A stretch of 64,000 nt of DNA from Sutcliffiella horikoshii DSM 8719. Its GTDB lineage: Bacteria > Bacillota > Bacilli > Bacillales > Bacillaceae_I. The position numbers and the translations under genes were made by a program. This document shows, in pieces, positions 10,609-63,980 of the stretch. How positions within the stretch are numbered: the stretch's first letter is position 1; the number at the start of each line of letters is the position of its first letter. The notes below the pieces were generated by a model, which was not told the DNA's origin, searched no databases, and saw only the letters and a list, made by a program, of their open reading frames with translations. The stretch lies in the NCBI GenBank assembly GCA_001648575.1, contig LQXN01000060.1, positions 62,001 to 126,000 on the forward strand. The letters run 5' to 3'.

Positions 10609-11463
10609 TTAATAGTAGAAAGTCCCTGTACAGATAACTTCGGCAGGTCCGCGCATTTTCACTGAACCTTCCTTCGTCCATGTGATAAAGAGGTCTCCTC
10701 CTGCGAGGTGAACAATTGTTTCCTTGTCACGTGCAGTTCTTTCATTAAGTACGGATGACACCACTGCCGCACAAGCCCCTGTGCCGCAAGCCTGCGTGAT
10801 CCCAGACCCTCTCTCCCATACCCTGAAATGCAGCTCATCATCTGAGACAACCTCGACAAATTCTACATTAACCCCTTCAGGAAAGCGAGGGTCCTTTTCC
10901 ACTACAGGACCAAGGGAAGTCAGAGGAGCATCCTTTATATCATCCAGATAAAAAATGACGTGTGGATTCCCCATGGACACTGTCGTTATTTCGTAGGTTG
11001 CTCCGTCCACTTCAAAAGGTTCGGCAATTAAAAATCCCTTTTCCTCTACAAGTATCGGTATTTCTCTTGTGGAGAGTTTCGGTTCTCCCATGTCGACTGT
11101 TACAGAGGTAACCTCCCCCTCTTCCACTTCTACTACAGCTTCTACCAGACCAGAAAGTGTTTCGATTTTAAAAATATCTGTGTGGACAATTCCATGCTCA
11201 TATGCATATTTTGCAACACAGCGAAGCCCATTACCACAGTTTTTCCCTTCCGATCCGTCATTATTAAAGATTCGCATTTTTACTGGTGCCGAGTCCGATG
11301 GGCAAATCAAAATCATCCCATCTGATCCGATGCCTGTATGGATGTTGGCTACCTTGACGGCAAGTCCTTCCAACTCTTCTTCTTTTAATTTTTCCTCAAA
11401 CATATTTACATATATATAATTGTTACCCAAACCGTGCATCTTGGTGAATTCAAAGGAGCGCAT
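10609..11463 (-). CDS. dapF: Diaminopimelate epimerase
   Basis: 284 residues. Converts LL- to meso-diaminopimelate for lysine and peptidoglycan. Both catalytic cysteines are seen in their motifs: NCGNGLRC near residue 76 and QACGTGACA near residue 225. The N-terminal [14 protein letters not shown] is the family's substrate loop, with Tyr in place of the commoner Asp-Phe. The ATG follows GGAGGAATAGGAAAAG. Both hairpins at 11553-11650 isolate it from the upstream nucleoside transporter gene, so it has its own promoter in 11464-11552. Confidence 0.95.
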
Positions 11464-17907: not shown

Positions 17908-18962
17908 ACTGTGACACCTTCAAACGATTTTACAAGTAGTGAATAGTCGTTCGGGATCTGTTTCACGGTGACATTTGCATGGTTAGTTGCTGTGACAGGA
18001 TCTTTCAATCCGTTCCCTGTCAGGACACATACCACCTGTTTCCCTTTGGGAATTTCACCTGATTTCAACTGTTTGATTACTCCGGCAACAGACGCGCTTG
18101 AAGCAGGTTCGGCAAAGACACCTTCCGTTTGCGCAAGGAGTTTATAGGCATACAGTATTTCTTCGTCTGTCACAAAATCGATTTTCCCGTTAGAATCTCG
18201 CTCTGCCTCGACGGCATATTCCCAACTCGCGGGATTTCCGATCCGAATGGCAGTGGCGATGGTTTCCGGATCCGGAATGACCCGTTTTTGGACAATCGCC
18301 GCTGCTCCCTCCGCCTCAAATCCTCTCATTTGAGGCAAACCTGAAGACTTTTCCAGATGATATTCTTGAAACCCTTTCCAATATGCAGTGATATTCCCTG
18401 CATTTCCAACAGGAAGAGCCAGGACATCCGGTGCCTTGCCAAGCTGGTCGCACACTTCAAACGCAGCGGTCTTCTGTCCTTCGATGCGATAGGGATTCAG
18501 AGAGTTGACCAATGTGATTGGTAGCTCTTGTGATAATTGGCGTACCATTTGCAGGGCCTCATCAAAATTTCCGTCCAAGGAGTAAATTTCAGCACCGTAC
18601 ATGACTGCCTGAGCAAGCTTGCCTTGTGCGATTTTCCCGTCCGGGATGACCACGATGCATTTCATCCCGGCTCTTGCCGCATAGGCCGCAGCAGATGCCG
18701 AAGTGTTGCCGGTTGAGGCACATACGACCGTCGTACTTCCTTCCTCTTTCGCCTTTGCTACAGCAAGGGCCATGCCCCGGTCCTTAAAGGAACCGGTCGG
18801 ATTTGCCCCTTCCACTTTTACATGTAGCTCAAGCCCCAGCTTATCGGATAGCTTTTCTAGAAAAAGCAATGGTGTGTTCCCTTCTTGAAGGGATACGTTA
18901 GGTGTATGTTCATTTACTGGCAGGTAGTTGCTGTATTCCTTTACTAGACCTCTCCACATCAT
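17904..18962 (-). CDS. thrC: Threonine synthase
   Basis: 352 residues, the short PLP-dependent threonine synthase type. The PLP lysine lies in [11 protein letters not shown] near residue 60, the phosphate-binding loop [16 protein letters not shown] is near residue 185, and [11 protein letters not shown] is near the C-terminus. Converts O-phosphohomoserine to threonine. It overlaps hom upstream and thrB downstream by 4 nt each (ATGA), so the three are translated from one message. Two ATG codons are adjacent at the start. Confidence 0.95.
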
Positions 18963-20257
18963 ACGGCCACTTCTCCTTCCACCCGGTAGCTGCTCTTGAT
19001 TTCTTTTACATACTTCATATCGGCAAGCTCTACCAGCAAGTCTTCATAACGCTGAAGGGAGGCATGATGCGTGACGACCACCACTTCTGCTAACGCTTCT
19101 TCCTTTAATGGAAGCTGCAAGATTTTCTCGAAGCTGACACCTTTTTGTGAAAATAGATTGGTAATATGGGAGAGTACCCCTACCTCATCTTCTACATGGA
19201 CCCGAAGGAAATGCTTTGCTTGAACTTCTTCTTTATTCTTTAATGTCTTCTGGAATTGAGGGGATACCATGCTCTTTCCGTTCACACCAAGTCTCATATT
19301 CTTCATCACGCCAACCAGGTCCGACACGACCGCTGTTGCAGTTGGCAGGCTCCCTGCACCAGGTCCATAGAACATCGTTTCCCCTACTGCTTCCCCGTAG
19401 ACATATACGGCATTATATTCATTCTGGACACTTGCCAATGGGTGTGCCTGTGGAAGAAGGGTCGGTTGAACGCTGACCTCCACCTTTTCCTTTTCACGAT
19501 GGGCAATACCGATTAGCTTCATTGTGTAACCAAGCTTCTTGCTATAGTTTAAGTCATCCTCGGAAACGGCGCTGATTCCTTTCACCTCGACATCCTTGAG
19601 CTCTATATTCATGGAAAAACCCAGAGTTGAGAGGATCGCCATTTTCCGTGCTGCGTCGATACCTTCTACGTCAGCAGTCGGATCTGCTTCTGCAAACCCT
19701 AGCTCTTGTGCCTCTTTTAACACTTCTTCATAGGAGGAGCCTTCATTGTTCATCTTTGTAAGGATGAAATTAGTCGTCCCATTCACAATCCCCATCATTT
19801 TCGTGATTCTATCAGATGCAAGCCCGTCGACAAGGCCACGTAAAATCGGGATTCCCCCTGCCACACTTGCTTCATAGAATAAATCACAATTATTTTCCGC
19901 TGCCGCTGCCAGCAATTCTGAGCCATAGACAGCCATCAGGTCTTTATTGGCAGTGACTACATGCTTCTTATTATGAAGCGCCCTTAAAATATGATGGCGA
20001 GTCTCTTCGACCCCACCCATCACTTCGATCACCACGTCAATCTCAGGATCATCCAATACTTCCTCCGCATGCAGCGTCAACAATTCAGGATTCAAATCCA
20101 CCAGCCGCTCCTTATGCAAATCCTTCACAAGCGCCTTCTTCACCCTCACCGGACACCCCACCTGATGCATCAACTTATCCTGATGACTCTCCACAATCTT
20201 CACAACCCCACAACCAACCGTACCCAACCCCAACAAACCAACCGAAATCACCTTCAC
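18959..20257 (-). CDS. hom: Homoserine dehydrogenase with C-terminal ACT domain
   Basis: 432 residues. The NAD(P) site [12 protein letters not shown] is near residue 9, the catalytic-domain block [16 protein letters not shown] near residue 128, and an ACT regulatory domain occupies about residues 350-432 ([20 protein letters not shown]), giving feedback control by threonine. It reduces aspartate semialdehyde to homoserine. Starts with GTG behind AGGAGAG. The first 57 codons end exclusively in G or T (first exception GAA at codon 58), unlike the rest of the gene; the protein itself looks normal. A strong sigma-A promoter is at 20376-20404. Confidence 0.95.
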
Positions 20258-20275: not shown

Positions 20276-20330
20276 AGGGGGGTCTGACCCTCACCACTCT
20301 AAAGCATTAAAGAGGGGTCTGACCCCTTTT
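20276..20330. repeat. Pair of GGGGTCTGACCC palindromes, locus 1
   Basis: Two palindromes with units 35 nt apart (GGGGTCTGAC at 20279 and 20314), separated by CTCTAAAGCATTAAAGAG-type sequence. They lie in the leader of the hom message, just before its ribosome site. The same paired unit, with the same 35-nt spacing and orientation, occurs at 23351-23404. Confidence 0.85.
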
Positions 20331-20375
20331 TTGTTTTGTCTTTTCTATATGCACATTTGTATTTATATAATGGAC

Positions 20376-20404
20376 ATTATAGTGGGGTTTTGGACGCTTG
20401 ACAA
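20376..20404 (-). promoter_or_regulatory. Sigma-A promoter of hom-thrC-thrB
   Basis: On the minus strand TTGTCA, a 17-nt spacer and TATAAT. The predicted leader is about 110 nt and contains the repeat pair. I found no T-box or other riboswitch in it. Confidence 0.75.
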
Positions 20405-20429
20405 GGGGGGATTTATGAGGTTTTTGGGT

Positions 20430-20443
20430 TGTAAGCGTTTACT
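20430..20443. promoter_or_regulatory. Perfect-consensus CcpA (cre) site
   Basis: TGTAAGCGTTTACT fits all 14 positions of TGWAARCGYTWNCW. It is 26 bp upstream of the hom -35 box and about 150 bp before the plus-strand gene at 20596. Which gene it controls is unknown. The remainder of 20444-20595 holds nothing I recognise. Confidence 0.6.
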
Positions 20444-20595
20444 ACTCTGGGGGAGTAAAGGAAATTTATTTCTTTTAATTAGATGATTAAGATATTGTGT
20501 TCTTTTATGAAACTTTTTCCATCTGTTTTCGTACTAGAAGAGTGATGGGTGGTAAAATCACGATTCTTGCAATTACATACTGAAAGGAGCTACTA

Positions 20596-22165: not shown

Positions 22166-23173
22166 TTATTTTTTCACCCAGTCCAGGATTGGTATGCCAT
22201 ATGTTTTGGCAGGCACACCTGCTAGATCATAAAAATTTCCTAGGAGCTGTTCATAATAACTGGATGATCGCAAGACCCCTCTCATTCTGTCTTCATGCCA
22301 TTTTTTATCCGCTACAGGTCCGCTTGTATAATAATCCTCCACACATTCTAAATAGTGGACCGGGAAAACAAGACGCGCGTATAGAAGTCGCCATGAGAAA
22401 CTAGAAAGCGGGGAGACCTTTTCATAATCCTGCAAGAAAGTTTGTATTTTTCCGGGATTCATGTCACTGCCTTTTCGACATTCAGCCCTGATCCATTCAG
22501 ACAAGTCTCTGCTGGCATGATCAAATATCCAATCTGTCGGAAGCTTCATCCATTGGTTCTGTTGCCAAGTGAGGTCTGTAAAGCGATGATGACATAGTGT
22601 TGCCGCATCATTTATCATCGGACTGTCATCAAGTTCAGTATCCACTAGATACTGAATTGCATTTTCCGTTAACCCTAAGTAATAAGGGAAAGATTCTACA
22701 AATTGGGTATCAAAAACATCTACCGGATTGCTTCTTACTTTTTCCCTGTAAAAGCTCTCCATCTGGTCGATCCTTTTCACCCATAAGTCCTTCCACTGTC
22801 CGATACGGTTTATGGCTGTCACTTTTGACGGGAAGCTTCTGGCATGGTAATGGAAGGTTGCCAATTCTTTACCGACGAAAAGTTGGTGAGAGTTATTGTT
22901 ATAAGGCATCCTGAAAAGTGCTATTTTTTTCCCTTCTATATCAGTTATATAGGAATCACTTTTATTTTTGACGAAAGAACTAACATATATATCCTGGTGC
23001 GTGCGTATCATATAGTCACTTATCTTTTGAAGTTCATCTATTTCCTCCTCCTCCAAGTGACCAACAGGTACCATGATGTACAGTACCCGATTAGCCCAGA
23101 AAGCATCAAACTGCCGCACCCTTTGTTTTCTTTCCACCCTTAAATCAAAATGTTCATAAATATTCTGCTTCAA
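22166..23173 (-). CDS. yutH: YutH-type spore coat-associated protein
   Basis: About 335 residues related to the CotS/YutH family, whose fold resembles aminoglycoside phosphotransferases (FHYHARSFPS and the later LCHHRFTDLTWQQN correspond to ATP- and catalytic-loop regions, though typical kinase residues are not obvious). Family members are spore coat components made in the mother cell. No ATG fits the ribosome site AGGAGGGG; a TTG at 23173 (or 23176) is the best start. In B. subtilis yutH is next to hom. Here two extra genes intervene. Confidence 0.82.
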   Translation of the reverse strand: MKQNIYEHFDLRVERKQRVRQFDAFWANRVLYIMVPVGHLEEEEIDELQKISDYMIRTHQDIYVSSFVKNKSDSYITDIEGKKIALFRMPYNNNSHQLFVGKELATFHYHARSFPSKVTAINRIGQWKDLWVKRIDQMESFYREKVRSNPVDVFDTQFVESFPYYLGLTENAIQYLVDTELDDSPMINDAATLCHHRFTDLTWQQNQWMKLPTDWIFDHASRDLSEWIRAECRKGSDMNPGKIQTFLQDYEKVSPLSSFSWRLLYARLVFPVHYLECVEDYYTSGPVADKKWHEDRMRGVLRSSSYYEQLLGNFYDLAGVPAKTYGIPILDWVKK

Positions 23174-23340
23174 CAAACATCCCCTCCTATTCCCTAGTAC
23201 CAACTATATGAAGAAAACAAAGAAAACTTGTTAGAAAAGAACAAGCAAATGAACAAACCTAAACAAAAGCTATTATTTCTAACAAAAAAGGGAATAAAGG
23301 ATAAAGAAAGAGGGAGATATGGGGGATATCCTCATTGCTC

Positions 23341-23404
23341 TAAAGCAATAAAGAGGGGTCTGACCCTCTCCGCTCTAAAGCGTTAAAGAGGGGTCTGACC
23401 CCTC
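23341..23404. repeat. Pair of GGGGTCTGACCC palindromes, locus 2
   Basis: CTCTAAAGCNNTAAAGAGG followed by GGGTCTGACCCTC, twice, with a 35-nt period (GGGGTCTGAC at 23355 and 23390). Same orientation as 20276-20330. It ends 30 nt before the yutG start. The preceding 23174-23340 is A-rich non-coding sequence with no other feature. Confidence 0.85.
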
Positions 23405-23433
23405 AACTATATTATAGAAGATGGGTGAGCCGG

Positions 23434-23934
23434 ATGAAGAATTTCGAGAGTATGGATGAGGTAGAGAGAAAGGCTAGAGCTTTGTTGGAGGAGCGCGGGG
23501 TGACGATGGATGATATTGCGGAGTTGGTGTATTTTTTGCAGTCGAAGTACCATCCTGCCCTTGAGCGTTCTGAGTGTTTGGAAAATGTGGATCGCGTCCT
23601 TTCTAAAAGAGAGGTTCAGAATACCGTTCTTACGGCGATAGAGTTGGACATATTAGCTGAAGAAGGAAAGATTCAAGAGCCGCTGCTGCGGATACTGCGT
23701 GATGATGAAGGCTTGTATGGAGTGGATGAGGTATTGGCATTATCTATTGTAAATGTATATGGCTCCATCGGCTTCACCAATTACGGGTATATTGACAAGC
23801 TTAAACCTGGAATACTTGAAAGCCTGAACGACAAAAGCTCCGGGAAGGTGCACACATTCCTTGATGATATCGTAGGGGCGATTGCCGCTGCAGCATCAAG
23901 CCGCTTGGCTCACAGAGCGGCAAATACAGAATAA
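23434..23934 (+). CDS. yutG: Phosphatidylglycerophosphatase A family protein (YutG)
   Basis: 166 residues, PgpA family. DEVLALSIVNVYGSIGFTNY is followed by LDDIVGAIAAAASSRLAHR, the conserved helical core with acidic residues. PgpA enzymes dephosphorylate phosphatidylglycerophosphate; the Firmicute branch lacks the long membrane segments of the E. coli enzyme, so the true substrate is not certain. A GTG three codons upstream (23425) is an alternative start. Codons 19-40 end almost only in G or T, like the start of hom beside the other repeat pair. It is monocistronic. Confidence 0.85.
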   Translation: MKNFESMDEVERKARALLEERGVTMDDIAELVYFLQSKYHPALERSECLENVDRVLSKREVQNTVLTAIELDILAEEGKIQEPLLRILRDDEGLYGVDEVLALSIVNVYGSIGFTNYGYIDKLKPGILESLNDKSSGKVHTFLDDIVGAIAAAASSRLAHRAANTE

Positions 23935-60820: not shown

Positions 60821-62605
60821 TTAAACAGTGTATTTTTGAGCGTCCAATACAACAGCTGCAATTTCGCGCTTCTTCGCAACTACATTGATCGGTGTGTGGC
60901 GAGTGAATTTACGAAGCGCAGAAATCATCATGCGAAGCGTATCTCCACTCTCAGCAGCCACCAATGTTTCTCTGGCATCTGCTTCAATTTGGTTGAACGC
61001 TTCTTGACAGAACACTTGAGTATAAAGAACTTTTTGTTTGTTTTTGTCTTCGCCGGATTTTGCGATCGCTTTTTCCGTACGTAGTACTGCAGACTCCATA
61101 GCATAGACGTTACTGATGATGTCAGCGATGTTAACAAGCAATTCTTGCTCTTTTTCCAATGCTTTTCCGTACTTTTGAGCAACAAGCCCAGTCATTAGGA
61201 TAGCGATTTTCTTAGCATTTTTCACAAGATATTTCTCTTGCTCCAATACTCCGTCTCCAACTTCCTCCGGCATAAGCATCATTAACTCTTCTTGCAGACT
61301 TTGTGCTTTTTGGATAAGTGGAAGTTCGCCTTTTAATGCTTTACGCAGATATGTTCCTGGAACCAATAAGCGGTTGATTTCGTTTGTTCCTTCAAAGATT
61401 CGGTTGATACGGGAGTCGCGGTACATTCTTTCTACTTCGTACTCTGCCATAAAGCCGTATCCACCATGAATTTGAACCGCCTCATCAACTACATAGTCAA
61501 GCGTTTCAGAACCGAATACTTTATTTAAAGAACACTCGATTGCATATTCAGCAACAGCTTTTGCCACTGCATTAGGATCCTTCTCTTCTTCTTTAGTCAA
61601 GCGGCCCATGCTGTCTTCAAAAAGTCCGACTGTACGGTATACAGAGCTTTCTGTTGCATATGTTTTAACTGCCATGTTTGCAAGCTTCTCTTGGATAAGG
61701 GAGAATTTTGCGATTGGAGTTTTGAATTGCTGGCGTTGATTTGCATATGTTGCTGCAAGCTCGATTCCACGCTTGGATCCTCCGACTGTCCCAACAGCCA
61801 ACTTGTAGCGTCCGATATTCAAGATATTGAAGGCGATAACGTGGCCACGCCCTATTTCCCCTAAAAGGTTTTCTTTCGGTACAAGTGCATCTTCCAAGAT
61901 CAAAGTACGTGTAGAAGATCCCTTGATTCCCATTTTCTTTTCTTCCGGTCCTGTGGAGACCCCACCAAAATCGCGCTCTACGATGAATGCGGAGAAGTGC
62001 TCGCCATCAATTTTTGCATAAACAACGAATACGTCAGCAAATCCAGCATTTGTGATCCATTGCTTTTCTCCATTCAATACATAGTGGGTGCCTTCGACAT
62101 TCAATTTTGCAGTCGTTTTCGCACCAAGTGCATCAGATCCGGAACCTGGCTCTGTTAAGGCGTACGCTGCAAGCAATTCACCGGAAGAGAGTTTTGGAAG
62201 GTATTTTTGCTTTTGGTCTTCATTACCGAAAAGAACGATTGGAAGGGATCCGATTCCAACGTGTGCTCCGTAGGATAAGGAGAAGCCGCCAGCTCTTGAG
62301 AATTTTTCTGTGATCAGGGATGAGCTGATTTTATCAAGGCCGAATCCGCCGTACTCTTCTTGTACGTCTGCTCCTAAGAGGCCTAGTTCGCCTGCTTCTT
62401 TTAATAGTTTTACGGAGATGTCGAAGTTGTGGTGTTCGATTTCTTCCAGGTTGGGTACTACTTCATTTAGGACGAATTCTTCTGTTGTTTTGGCAATTAG
62501 TTTGTGTTCGTCTGAGAAGTCCTCTGGTGTGAAGACTTTTTCTGCGGCGATGTCGTCAAGTAGGAAGCTTCCGCCTTTGATTATGTTTTCTAATGTGTTT
62601 GACAT
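60821..62605 (-). CDS. fadE: Acyl-CoA dehydrogenase (FadE/YusJ)
   Basis: 594 residues, longer than short-chain enzymes because of a C-terminal extension as in VLCAD types. FAD/substrate motifs ALTEPGSGSDALG near residue 150, QIHGGYGFMAEY near 393 and INRIFEGTNEINR near 415. First step of fatty-acid beta-oxidation. B. subtilis has yusL-yusK-yusJ in this order under FadR. The first roughly 70 codons end in A or C about 90% of the time, unlike the rest of the gene. An intergenic repeat core separates it from fadA. Confidence 0.94.
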   Translation of the reverse strand: MSNTLENIIKGGSFLLDDIAAEKVFTPEDFSDEHKLIAKTTEEFVLNEVVPNLEEIEHHNFDISVKLLKEAGELGLLGADVQEEYGGFGLDKISSSLITEKFSRAGGFSLSYGAHVGIGSLPIVLFGNEDQKQKYLPKLSSGELLAAYALTEPGSGSDALGAKTTAKLNVEGTHYVLNGEKQWITNAGFADVFVVYAKIDGEHFSAFIVERDFGGVSTGPEEKKMGIKGSSTRTLILEDALVPKENLLGEIGRGHVIAFNILNIGRYKLAVGTVGGSKRGIELAATYANQRQQFKTPIAKFSLIQEKLANMAVKTYATESSVYRTVGLFEDSMGRLTKEEEKDPNAVAKAVAEYAIECSLNKVFGSETLDYVVDEAVQIHGGYGFMAEYEVERMYRDSRINRIFEGTNEINRLLVPGTYLRKALKGELPLIQKAQSLQEELMMLMPEEVGDGVLEQEKYLVKNAKKIAILMTGLVAQKYGKALEKEQELLVNIADIISNVYAMESAVLRTEKAIAKSGEDKNKQKVLYTQVFCQEAFNQIEADARETLVAAESGDTLRMMISALRKFTRHTPINVVAKKREIAAVVLDAQKYTV

Positions 62606-62645
62606 TTTGTTTTCCTCCCGTTTGGTTACTAAATTAGGGTAACTT

Positions 62646-62785
62646 TTACACCGCTGTTGATTTCCGCACCGGGCTTCGCTTTCCTAGGGGCTGACGAGAG
62701 CCTCCTCACTTCGTTGCGGGGTCTCCACCTAACGCTATCTCCCTCAGGAGTCTTCGCCCTGTGCTCCAATCAACAGCTAAGTTAT
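62646..62785. repeat. Divergent family A core without ends
   Basis: Reverse orientation relative to copies 1-4: its reverse complement reads CTGTTGATTGGAGCACAGGG, CGAAGACTCCTGAGGGAG, GAGACCCCGCAACGAAGTGAGGAGG-type sequence, AGGAAAGCGAAG and AAATCAACAG, in the order of the family A core. The TGTGTAGACAAA/TTTGTCAACA ends and duplicated hairpins are absent. It lies inside the fadA-fadE operon spacer. Confidence 0.8.
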
Positions 62786-62801
62786 TTTATAAACAATCTA
62801 T

Positions 62802-63980
62802 TTATGCCAGTAGTTCGAATACGCCTGCGGCTCCCATTCCGCCGCCGATACACATGCTGACTATGCCAAACTGTTCGTTGCGGCGTTGCATTTCGTGTAG
62901 GAGGGTCAGGGTCAGTTTGGAACCTGTGCATCCAAGTGGGTGTCCGAGTGCGATTGCCCCGCCGTTTACGTTTACTTTGTCTTCATCAAGACCAAGTTCG
63001 CGCATGACTTGGATTGCTTGGGATGCGAAGGCTTCGTTCAACTCCAGTAAGCCGATATCGGAAAGTTCCAAGCCTGCCAGTTTAAGTGCTTTTGGAATGG
63101 CTACTACCGGGCCGATTCCCATTACTTCCGGTGGTACGCCGCCTACTGCGAAGGATCGGAATTTAGCGATTGGTTTTAGACCAAGTGCTTCCGCTCTCTC
63201 TCTTTCCATCACAAGTACAGATGCTGCCCCGTCACTTGTTTGAGAAGAGTTTCCTGCTGTTACGGAGCCTTTGACATTAAATGCCGGGCGCAGTTTGCTC
63301 AATATTTCCATGGAAGTGCCCGCTCTTACTCCTTCATCCTGGCTGAAAGTGAAAGTGGACTCTTGCAATTTGTGGTTGGCTCCAACCTTGCGCATCGTTA
63401 CATCCACAGGCACGATCTCATCCACAAATTTACCTTCTTGGATCGCTCTTGCAGCACGTTCATGACTGCGAACTGCGAATGCGTCCTGGTCTTCACGGCT
63501 TACACCGTATTTTGTTGCAACCTGTTCTGCCGTGTGTCCCATTCCCATGTAATATTCAGGAGCTGAGTCGACAAGTCGTGCATTCGGACGGACTGTATGA
63601 CCTGTCATCGGCACCATGCTCATGGATTCCGCTCCGCCTGCGATGATGGATTCAGAGTGTCCAAGCATGATTCGTTCAGCCGCATAGGCGATAGTTTGCA
63701 AGCCTGAAGAACAATATCTATTGATGGTAATCGCAGGTACGCTTGATGGAAGTCCAGCCAATCCTCCGATGTTTCTTGCCATGTTCAGTCCTTGTTCCGC
63801 TTCCGGCATCGCACATCCGAAAATCAGGTCATCGATTGGACCATCATAATTGCCTGCTCTTTTCAGTGTTTCTTTAACTACTAATGCCCCTAGATCATCT
63901 GGTCGAACTGTAGCTAGTGATCCTTTTCTTGATCTTCCGACTGGTGTTCTTGCACCAGCAACAATAACGGCTTCTTTCAA
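62802..63980 (-). CDS. fadA: Acetyl-CoA acyltransferase / 3-ketoacyl-CoA thiolase (FadA/YusK)
   Basis: 392 residues. Nucleophilic cysteine in [15 protein letters not shown] near residue 87, [17 protein letters not shown] near residue 345 and the C-terminal [13 protein letters not shown]. Last step of beta-oxidation. TTG start with GAGGGGAGC ending 3 nt upstream; the upstream fadB (yusL) gene would lie beyond the window. Cotranscribed with fadE. Confidence 0.95.

Follow-up and report, generated by a model that had tools for sequence, protein, structure and literature searches.

Strand-specific G/T-rich halos around REP-like palindromes in the genome of Sutcliffiella horikoshii

In Sutcliffiella horikoshii DSM 8719, nearly every tested copy of the palindrome GGGTCTGACCC is surrounded by a halo in which the strand reading outward from the palindrome is rich in G and T; the halo spans distances of about 50 to 250 bp to either side. 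Over this distance the outward strand holds G for A and T for C, whatever the orientation of the genes. Recurrent cutting of the palindrome, with subsequent repair synthesis that runs outward and leaves G.T mispairs behind, may account for the halo; we infer both the cutting and the polymerase error, and give this reading a probability of about 0.5.

hom and the two palindrome pairs of the window

The window, a stretch of 64,000 nucleotides, holds two pairs of REP-like palindromes, 3 kb apart and with the same flanking pattern. Pair 1 lies beside hom, which we take to encode homoserine dehydrogenase (the name comes from an earlier sequence-only reading). The features are as follows.

18959..20257, minus strand: hom, 432 aa, GTG start at 20257 (open reading frame listing)
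20087..20257, minus strand: left halo of pair 1, hom codons 1-57, third bases all G/T (codon count)
20279..20291, plus strand: REP-like palindrome, pair 1 copy 1, GGGGTCTGACCCT (pattern match and composition-step scan)
20314..20326, plus strand: REP-like palindrome, pair 1 copy 2, GGGGTCTGACCCC, 35 bp from copy 1 (pattern match and composition-step scan)
20327..20550, plus strand: right halo of pair 1, non-coding, G/T 64-68%, C 6-13% (100-nt windows)
23135..23340, minus strand: left halo of pair 2, G/T-rich on this strand (in the 170 nt from 23135, plus-strand G+T is.324)
23355..23367, plus strand: REP-like palindrome, pair 2 copy 1 (pattern match and composition-step scan)
23390..23402, plus strand: REP-like palindrome, pair 2 copy 2 (pattern match and composition-step scan)
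23403..23600, plus strand: right halo of pair 2, spanning the start of the ORF at 23425-23934 (plus strand)

The initial annotation had reported that the first 57 codons of hom end only in G or T and that the plus strand beyond pair 1 is G/T-rich and C-poor. The codon count (57 of 57; G 65%, T 35%, no A or C) and the percentages listed above confirm both statements. A run of this length has a chance of about 1e-16, computed with hom's own G+T rate of.53. Third positions in the remainder of the gene are A.27, C.20, G.28, and T.25. In hom, codon 58 is GAA, and up to codon 75 the further A/C-ending codons are 66, 67, and 74. The annotation also had the skew stopping abruptly, whereas across the genome it declines gradually over about 250 bp.

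A blind composition-step scan of the window ranked the two pairs first (.43) and second (.27), and the next site scored.22. In 170-nt windows, the lowest plus-strand G+T of the 64 kb (.259, from 20093) and the highest (.682, shared by the tracts at 20382 and 20327) sit on opposite sides of pair 1, and the flanks of pair 2 are the second-lowest (23135) and fifth-highest (23421) tracts. The ORF at 23425-23934 has 82% G/T-ending codons among codons 2-57. Palindrome pairs with 35-bp spacing recur elsewhere in the genome. A second plus-strand G/T-rich stretch, at 61500-63980, has no palindrome; in this stretch the minus-strand ORF 62802-63980 has 79% A/C at the third positions of its last 57 codons.

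The halo around palindromes across the genome

The genome (G000) contains 98 exact GGGTCTGACCC sites, four of them on a duplicated contig, and the reversed control pattern has none. The sites group into 74 clusters. Each flank was oriented to read away from the palindrome, which gave 146 arms with one contig-edge cluster left out. That cluster is on contig C28, which duplicates part of C66, and is absent from all profiles; the other C28 cluster is counted among the 146 arms and was dropped from the codon-orientation, sequence-context, replication-direction, and 68-cluster tests. The RAYT, ggt, and spoIIQ-like ORFs of C28 (L043) are the same as those of C66, and the contig looks like an assembly duplicate.

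Outward-strand G+T over the 146 arms is.47-.50 in the first 50 bp, with no mean bias, perhaps because this segment is part of the repeat unit. The five 50-bp bins between 50 and 300 bp have, in order,.616,.629,.584,.544, and.508, and beyond 300 bp the value is.48-.50. G and T are both raised and A and C both lowered, and 130 of the 146 arms exceed.5 at 100-150 bp. Enrichment of skew beside the palindromes, the genome-wide check proposed in the initial annotation, was found in the 68-cluster test, which leaves out four C66 clusters beyond 164 kb: 67 of 68 clusters exceed.5 (mean.612), and 44 lie above the 99th percentile of random sites. Two thousand random sets have a mean of.501 and a maximum of.516 (z about 27 for the palindrome clusters). 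Halo strength is not linked to how many palindromes a cluster holds (.611 over 104 arms beside single palindromes and.610 over 40 arms beside multiple ones). A clear reversal is seen in three arms, with 200-bp values of.31,.31, and.33; one is within a tandem array and two are in the region left of and at the RAYT gene.

The strand affected does not depend on the genes. At 100-150 bp, third positions on the outward strand have a G+T of.741 in outward-reading genes and.820 in inward-reading genes, compared with.513 and.478 at 1-2 kb, and intergenic DNA has.619. Because the outward strand is the G/T-rich one, inward-reading genes carry A/C-ending codons at their ends. Gene ends with a palindrome at most 120 bp from the stop are.748 A/C-ending (n = 34, one below.5), versus.514 where there is no palindrome within 1 kb (n = 299; five reach.75, including the RAYT gene). 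Gene starts with a palindrome at most 120 bp upstream are.738 G/T-ending (n = 22, three below.5). Equal skew at repeat-free gene starts, which the initial annotation had regarded as evidence against a palindrome effect, was not seen: without a palindrome within 1 kb the mean is.512 over 310 genes, two of which reach.75. The annotation had listed selection on message structure among the possible causes. Message structure and translation-ramp codon choice were both rejected, given the opposite codon bias of inward-reading genes and the normal repeat-free starts.

The bias is the same in either gene orientation and in intergenic DNA, which indicates that the palindrome and not transcription sets the strand. 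A side effect of transcripts ending or starting at the palindrome is therefore extremely unlikely, even though many copies lie at gene boundaries (the 34 ends and 22 starts above). A general terminator effect was rejected as well, since 31 perfect-stem terminators without the palindrome have a mean of only.514.

Replication direction was assigned manually, using the GC skew of the stretches examined instead of their overall G+T, which is itself affected. At 50-100, 100-150, and 150-200 bp, leading-outward arms have.589,.632, and.562 and lagging-outward arms.643,.626, and.609 over all contigs (72 arms each). Outside C66 (48 arms each) the two classes resemble each other, with.628/.657/.586 and.622/.618/.594. 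In C66 they differ (.511/.582/.515 leading-outward versus.686/.643/.640 lagging-outward, 24 arms each, on backgrounds of.505 and.466). An effect of replication direction was not seen outside C66, though one is present within it. Thus polarity is set by the palindrome, and halo strength in C66 has an additional component.

These data bear on the idea that forks stall at the palindrome and restart with error-prone DnaE on both strands, as at a tiny replication origin. The sign of the halo is that of leading-strand polymerase errors (available part of PMC8510543), DnaE is a primer-extending polymerase that itself lacks an exonuclease domain (available part of PMC11890065), and the two sides differ in strength in C66. 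However, a site normally has one fork direction, yet arms are alike outside C66, and the stronger side within C66 is the lagging-outward one. We consider this origin unlikely.

Related genomes with and without the palindrome

Among the best 80 of 436 loci related to hom (72-97% identity), the six with the palindrome pair have 93-100% G/T-ending codons at positions 2-57, and the 74 without it have a mean of 49% and a maximum of 66%. Skewed hom orthologues lacking the pair, the other observation that the initial annotation would have counted against the palindromes, were thus absent among the 74. In the region orthologous to C66, the relatives G015 and G002 carry halos of.596/.578 and.577/.602, respectively, at 50-150 bp (18 clusters each). 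In both, left arms peak at.54 and right arms at.65-.66, the right being stronger as in G000.

Against the palindrome-free relative G005, the differences at 100-150 bp number 87 for A>G versus 5 for G>A (891 versus 421 in the far background) and 33 for C>T versus 21 for T>C (428 versus 864). Purine-pyrimidine exchange in this comparison affects 9.8% of sites, with a background of 9.2% (summed counts). Against G009, which has no variant palindrome in the C66-orthologous region, the counts are A>G 56 and G>A 6 (background 800 and 572) and C>T 31 and T>C 15 (592 and 798). Contrasts with G014 and G004 are weaker, and both genomes carry divergent palindromes.

Palindromes might instead have landed in, or hitch-hiked with, sites that were already G/T-rich. 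G+T at the orthologous spots of G009, G014, and G004 is somewhat above.5 (.54-.58 over 50-250 bp), and most of these spots lack the exact palindrome. On the other hand, the arms of palindrome-free G005 are near background at.52, and the skew is missing from every one of the 74 hom relatives that have no pair, which refutes pre-existing skew for hom; for the genome we give this explanation next to no weight. G009 has this G/T excess even with no variant palindrome in the region.

Substitution classes help to separate mutation from selection. Between the window and the six palindrome-bearing hom relatives, third-position divergence in codons 2-57 is.144, versus.38-.41 elsewhere. Transitions in this halo are reduced to.035 at fourfold sites (.20-.22 elsewhere) and to.045 at twofold sites (.27 elsewhere). 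Transversions, at.205, are lower than the mean of the other blocks (.284), yet within their range (.173-.355). A comparison at fourfold sites covered the C66 region right of the RAYT gene, with the left part excluded. There, transitions at 50-150 bp and beyond 500 bp are.061 versus.148 in G015 and.113 versus.166 in G002 (212 near sites in each), and transversions near and far are.184 versus.180 and.198 versus.206. Directional A-to-G and C-to-T pressure would make purines settle on G and pyrimidines on T and leave exchange between the classes unaltered. Selection for G/T would also purge G-to-C and T-to-A changes and roughly halve transversions, which is not seen in the C66 comparison. Fewer transitions near palindromes with about the same transversions therefore point to mutation, and the alignments indicate directional A-to-G plus C-to-T mutation pressure rather than selection for G/T. 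The initial annotation had proposed such a shift on one strand, running outward from the palindromes on both sides, and it is supported by the genome-wide profile, the palindrome-free relatives, and the split between transitions and transversions.

In a reading based on selection, the cell or the repeat itself would require an outward strand rich in G/T beside the hairpin, or an inward strand that is A/C-rich and unstructured, as might serve termination or the transposase. Some palindrome copies resemble intrinsic terminators, with long stems and T runs, and 5407 of the 7200 bases within 50 bp of clusters are intergenic according to a mechanical ORF caller. In addition to the nearly unchanged transversions, the involvement of gene starts, hom among them, alongside gene ends, and the near-neutral value of the palindrome-free terminators, make this cause highly unlikely.

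The halo was also sought in other genomes. REPs of Escherichia coli K-12 have none (31 clusters in six 50-kb stretches). The exact palindrome occurs in four other genera, sampled at 30 loci of 55 matches with two G032 clusters counted twice. Little or no halo accompanies it in G032, G025, and G040; the strongest of the four is the mild halo of G055 (.60 and.56 at 50-150 bp, 7 loci). Variant palindromes of G004 have a weak halo (.568 at 100-150 bp, 12 clusters). In chosen stretches, the sister palindrome GGTGCCTGACCCC has no halo in G077 (26 clusters) or G033 (6), where values beside palindromes are somewhat below.5, and a weak one in G057 (15) and G223 (12). G077, which belongs to another family, has 139 GGTGCCTGACCCC sites, many in inverted pairs 31 bp apart that are REPIN-like (L324-L329); its halo-free palindromes are a useful contrast. 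The most frequent 11-mers of G009, G014, and G005 are largely derived from tandem arrays. The missing or weak halo at E. coli REPs and related palindromes indicates that a REP alone is insufficient and that the effect needs something particular to the horikoshii group.

The palindrome element and a possible origin of the halo

Palindromes occur as singles, as direct pairs with 35-bp or 43-bp spacing, and in other arrangements. By eye, one group has TTCGAC about 25 nt upstream, often with a long stem and then a T run, and another adjoins AAAGAG. A tandem array of about 61-bp units with a sister palindrome, GGGGTCAGGCACC, ends in one GGGTCTGACCC (L052, about 11140-11410; G000:C60:48149-48407), as if the two palindrome types could interconvert. 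The transposase gene associated with the palindromes, and a compositional domain beside it, are placed as follows.

C66:42911-43726: RAYT-type Y1 transposase gene, palindrome pair at its start
L067:1-12709, equal to G000:C66 about 30.8-43.7 kb, top strand: G/T-rich domain to one side of the RAYT gene, 13 kb or longer

The RAYT-like protein belongs to the Y1 (IS200-like) family (Pfam PF01797, 51.2 bits, cut-off 23); its best NCBIfam match is NF047646, the model for REP-associated tyrosine transposases, at 76.8 bits, slightly below the cut-off of 80. Eighteen of 20 RAYT loci were aligned, leaving out the duplicate contig and a G005 fragment. The tyrosine of YIH(L/Q)NP, presumably the catalytic one, is kept in all 18, and HTH replaces HUH in horikoshii-type RAYTs, in G004, and in one of the two RAYTs of G010. 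Two inverted palindromes 84 bp apart both lie at the start of the longest ORF, before the conserved domain, and the nearest palindrome downstream is about 1.7 kb off, beyond ggt.

All 11 genomes of the genus with 80-100 sites have a RAYT orthologue at least 78% identical. The site count in the remaining five of the 16 is 0-15, and their RAYT orthologues reach 56-60% identity at most: G004 (9 sites) and G010 (15 sites, 80% complete) have orthologues of that identity, and G009 (0), G014 (1), and G005 (0) have distant RAYTs or only a fragment. In G015 the RAYT ORF is truncated to 159 aa and diverges at its end, although this genome retains 91 palindromes and the halo (L097).

The element resembles REP/RAYT systems (REPtrons, REPINs) in its many short, dispersed, mostly intergenic palindromes, in a Y1 transposase orthologue that tracks their number, and in the palindrome pair at the transposase start. 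RAYT hallmarks are a His-hydrophobic-His motif and a nucleophilic tyrosine, and REPs carry a GTAG-type tag at the palindrome foot (available part of PMC2817692). Here the motif is instead His-Thr-His, the inverted palindromes are on the same side of the gene, and no GTAG-type tag was seen by eye. Because two traits described as typical in the literature, flanking on both sides and the tag, were not found, we call the element REP/RAYT-like. It further differs in its strand-specific halo, absent around the E. coli REP clusters. A strand-specific mutation halo is not mentioned in the available parts of RAYT/REP papers (PMC2817692, PMC3116915, PMC6006769). No description of such a halo beside REP-like palindromes was found in the titles and abstract openings of the open-access papers listed, and no open-access paper was found for the palindrome string.

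Across the RAYT gene and an adjoining stretch of about 13 kb, the G/T-rich strand is the opposite of the one predicted from the pair at the RAYT start. Third positions on the top strand of the domain are.62-.80 in nearly all genes shared by G000, G015, and G002, including ggt, chrA, and actP (exceptions in G000 are pcp,.53, and a plus-strand ATPase gene,.52). The corresponding values are.44-.63 in G009 and G005, and those of G004 and G014 (.33-.72) mostly fall in between. The excess stops at the RAYT palindromes and is far longer than the 250-bp halos. The domain contradicts a simple outward rule; it may be a long-tract form of the halo process or something else. In the 11 REP-rich genomes (horikoshii-type loci L086, L091-L097, L099, L102, and L103), the RAYT coding strand is 80-86% A/C-ending over its last 600 nt, opposite to expectation from its own upstream palindromes. 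The distant RAYTs of G009 (30% A/C-ending) and G014 (40%) lack this bias, and that of G007 has 78%.

Repair of a break from the sister copy, with 3' ends extended across the break, is established recombination logic. In the reading that we prefer, the palindrome would form a hairpin when single-stranded and be cut repeatedly by the RAYT-like Y1 transposase or a hairpin nuclease. The break would be repaired using the sister copy, and both 3' ends would be elongated across the palindrome and on into the arm beyond it. On each side, the new strand would then be precisely the outward one. Error-prone synthesis or escape from mismatch repair would place G opposite template T and T opposite template G, and the G.T mispairs would be fixed as A-to-G and C-to-T on the new strand. 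Repetition over evolutionary time could saturate the synonymous and intergenic positions that a repair tract covers. According to the available part of PMC8510543, both transitions are about twofold more frequent in mismatch-repair-defective E. coli when A and C are on the lagging-strand template. This template corresponds to new leading-strand sequence, so the sign of the halo matches. We count the co-occurrence of palindrome number and RAYT orthologue in the genus in favor of cutting by RAYT. The halo of G015, with its 159-aa RAYT ORF, counts against RAYT as the cutter, and the unequal sides in C66, G015, and G002, the three reversed arms, and the 13-kb domain count against the model.

Deamination of an exposed single-stranded outward strand (C to U and A to I, enzymatic or spontaneous) is a rather unlikely alternative. 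It would yield the two transitions, C-to-T and A-to-G, on a single strand to either side of the palindrome and leave transversions about unchanged. However, cytosine deaminates much faster than adenine, and here the A-to-G bias exceeds the C-to-T bias at third positions; no strong or deaminase-like neighbor-base preference was evident in the halo. Moreover, 5' resection at a break exposes the 3' overhang, here the inward strand, so ordinary resection would give the opposite sign. In the available part of PMC11890065, substitution in Bacillus subtilis is higher with C on the leading strand, and exposed leading-strand cytosines, likely through deamination, contribute to the C:G strand asymmetry, which keeps this alternative alive. 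Both deamination and error-prone copying had been offered in the initial annotation; copying fits better, short of proof.

The proposed outward repair synthesis can be set beside other known processes. Leading-strand keto skew and replication errors involve the same transition pair on the new strand (available part of PMC8510543), and as at an origin the sign switches at the palindrome, the outward strand being G/T-rich. In contrast to that skew, the halo is centered on some 70 clusters, extends about 250 bp, and is fork-independent outside C66. E. coli mutagenic break repair also joins a break with low-fidelity repair synthesis, as proposed here, but is stress-induced (available part of PMC5542668), whereas the sites here are fixed and natural and carry a base-composition record on a defined strand. 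Diversity-generating retroelements and antibody somatic hypermutation are targeted hypermutation systems. They likewise concentrate mutations in a small stretch beside a fixed element, unlike the near-complete transition drift at tolerated sites of ordinary genes seen here, which has no sign of useful diversity.

More tentatively, and with less than even odds, the palindromes and the Y1 transposase could form a dedicated site-anchored mutator, in which programmed cuts and resynthesis in the outward direction would put transitions on one defined strand within about 250 bp of some 70 chromosomal sites. If so, halo composition would record the element's past activity.

In the horikoshii group, a short repeat locally overrides codon choice in conserved genes, apparently via strand-specific mutation, and mutation and selection can be separated there through transitions and transversions. 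Codon-usage and phylogenetic analyses of repeat-adjacent genes could mislead if the halo is ignored. The halo offers a natural read-out of the place, strand, and length of possible DNA resynthesis around a palindrome, and the cellular role of RAYT-type transposases becomes testable.
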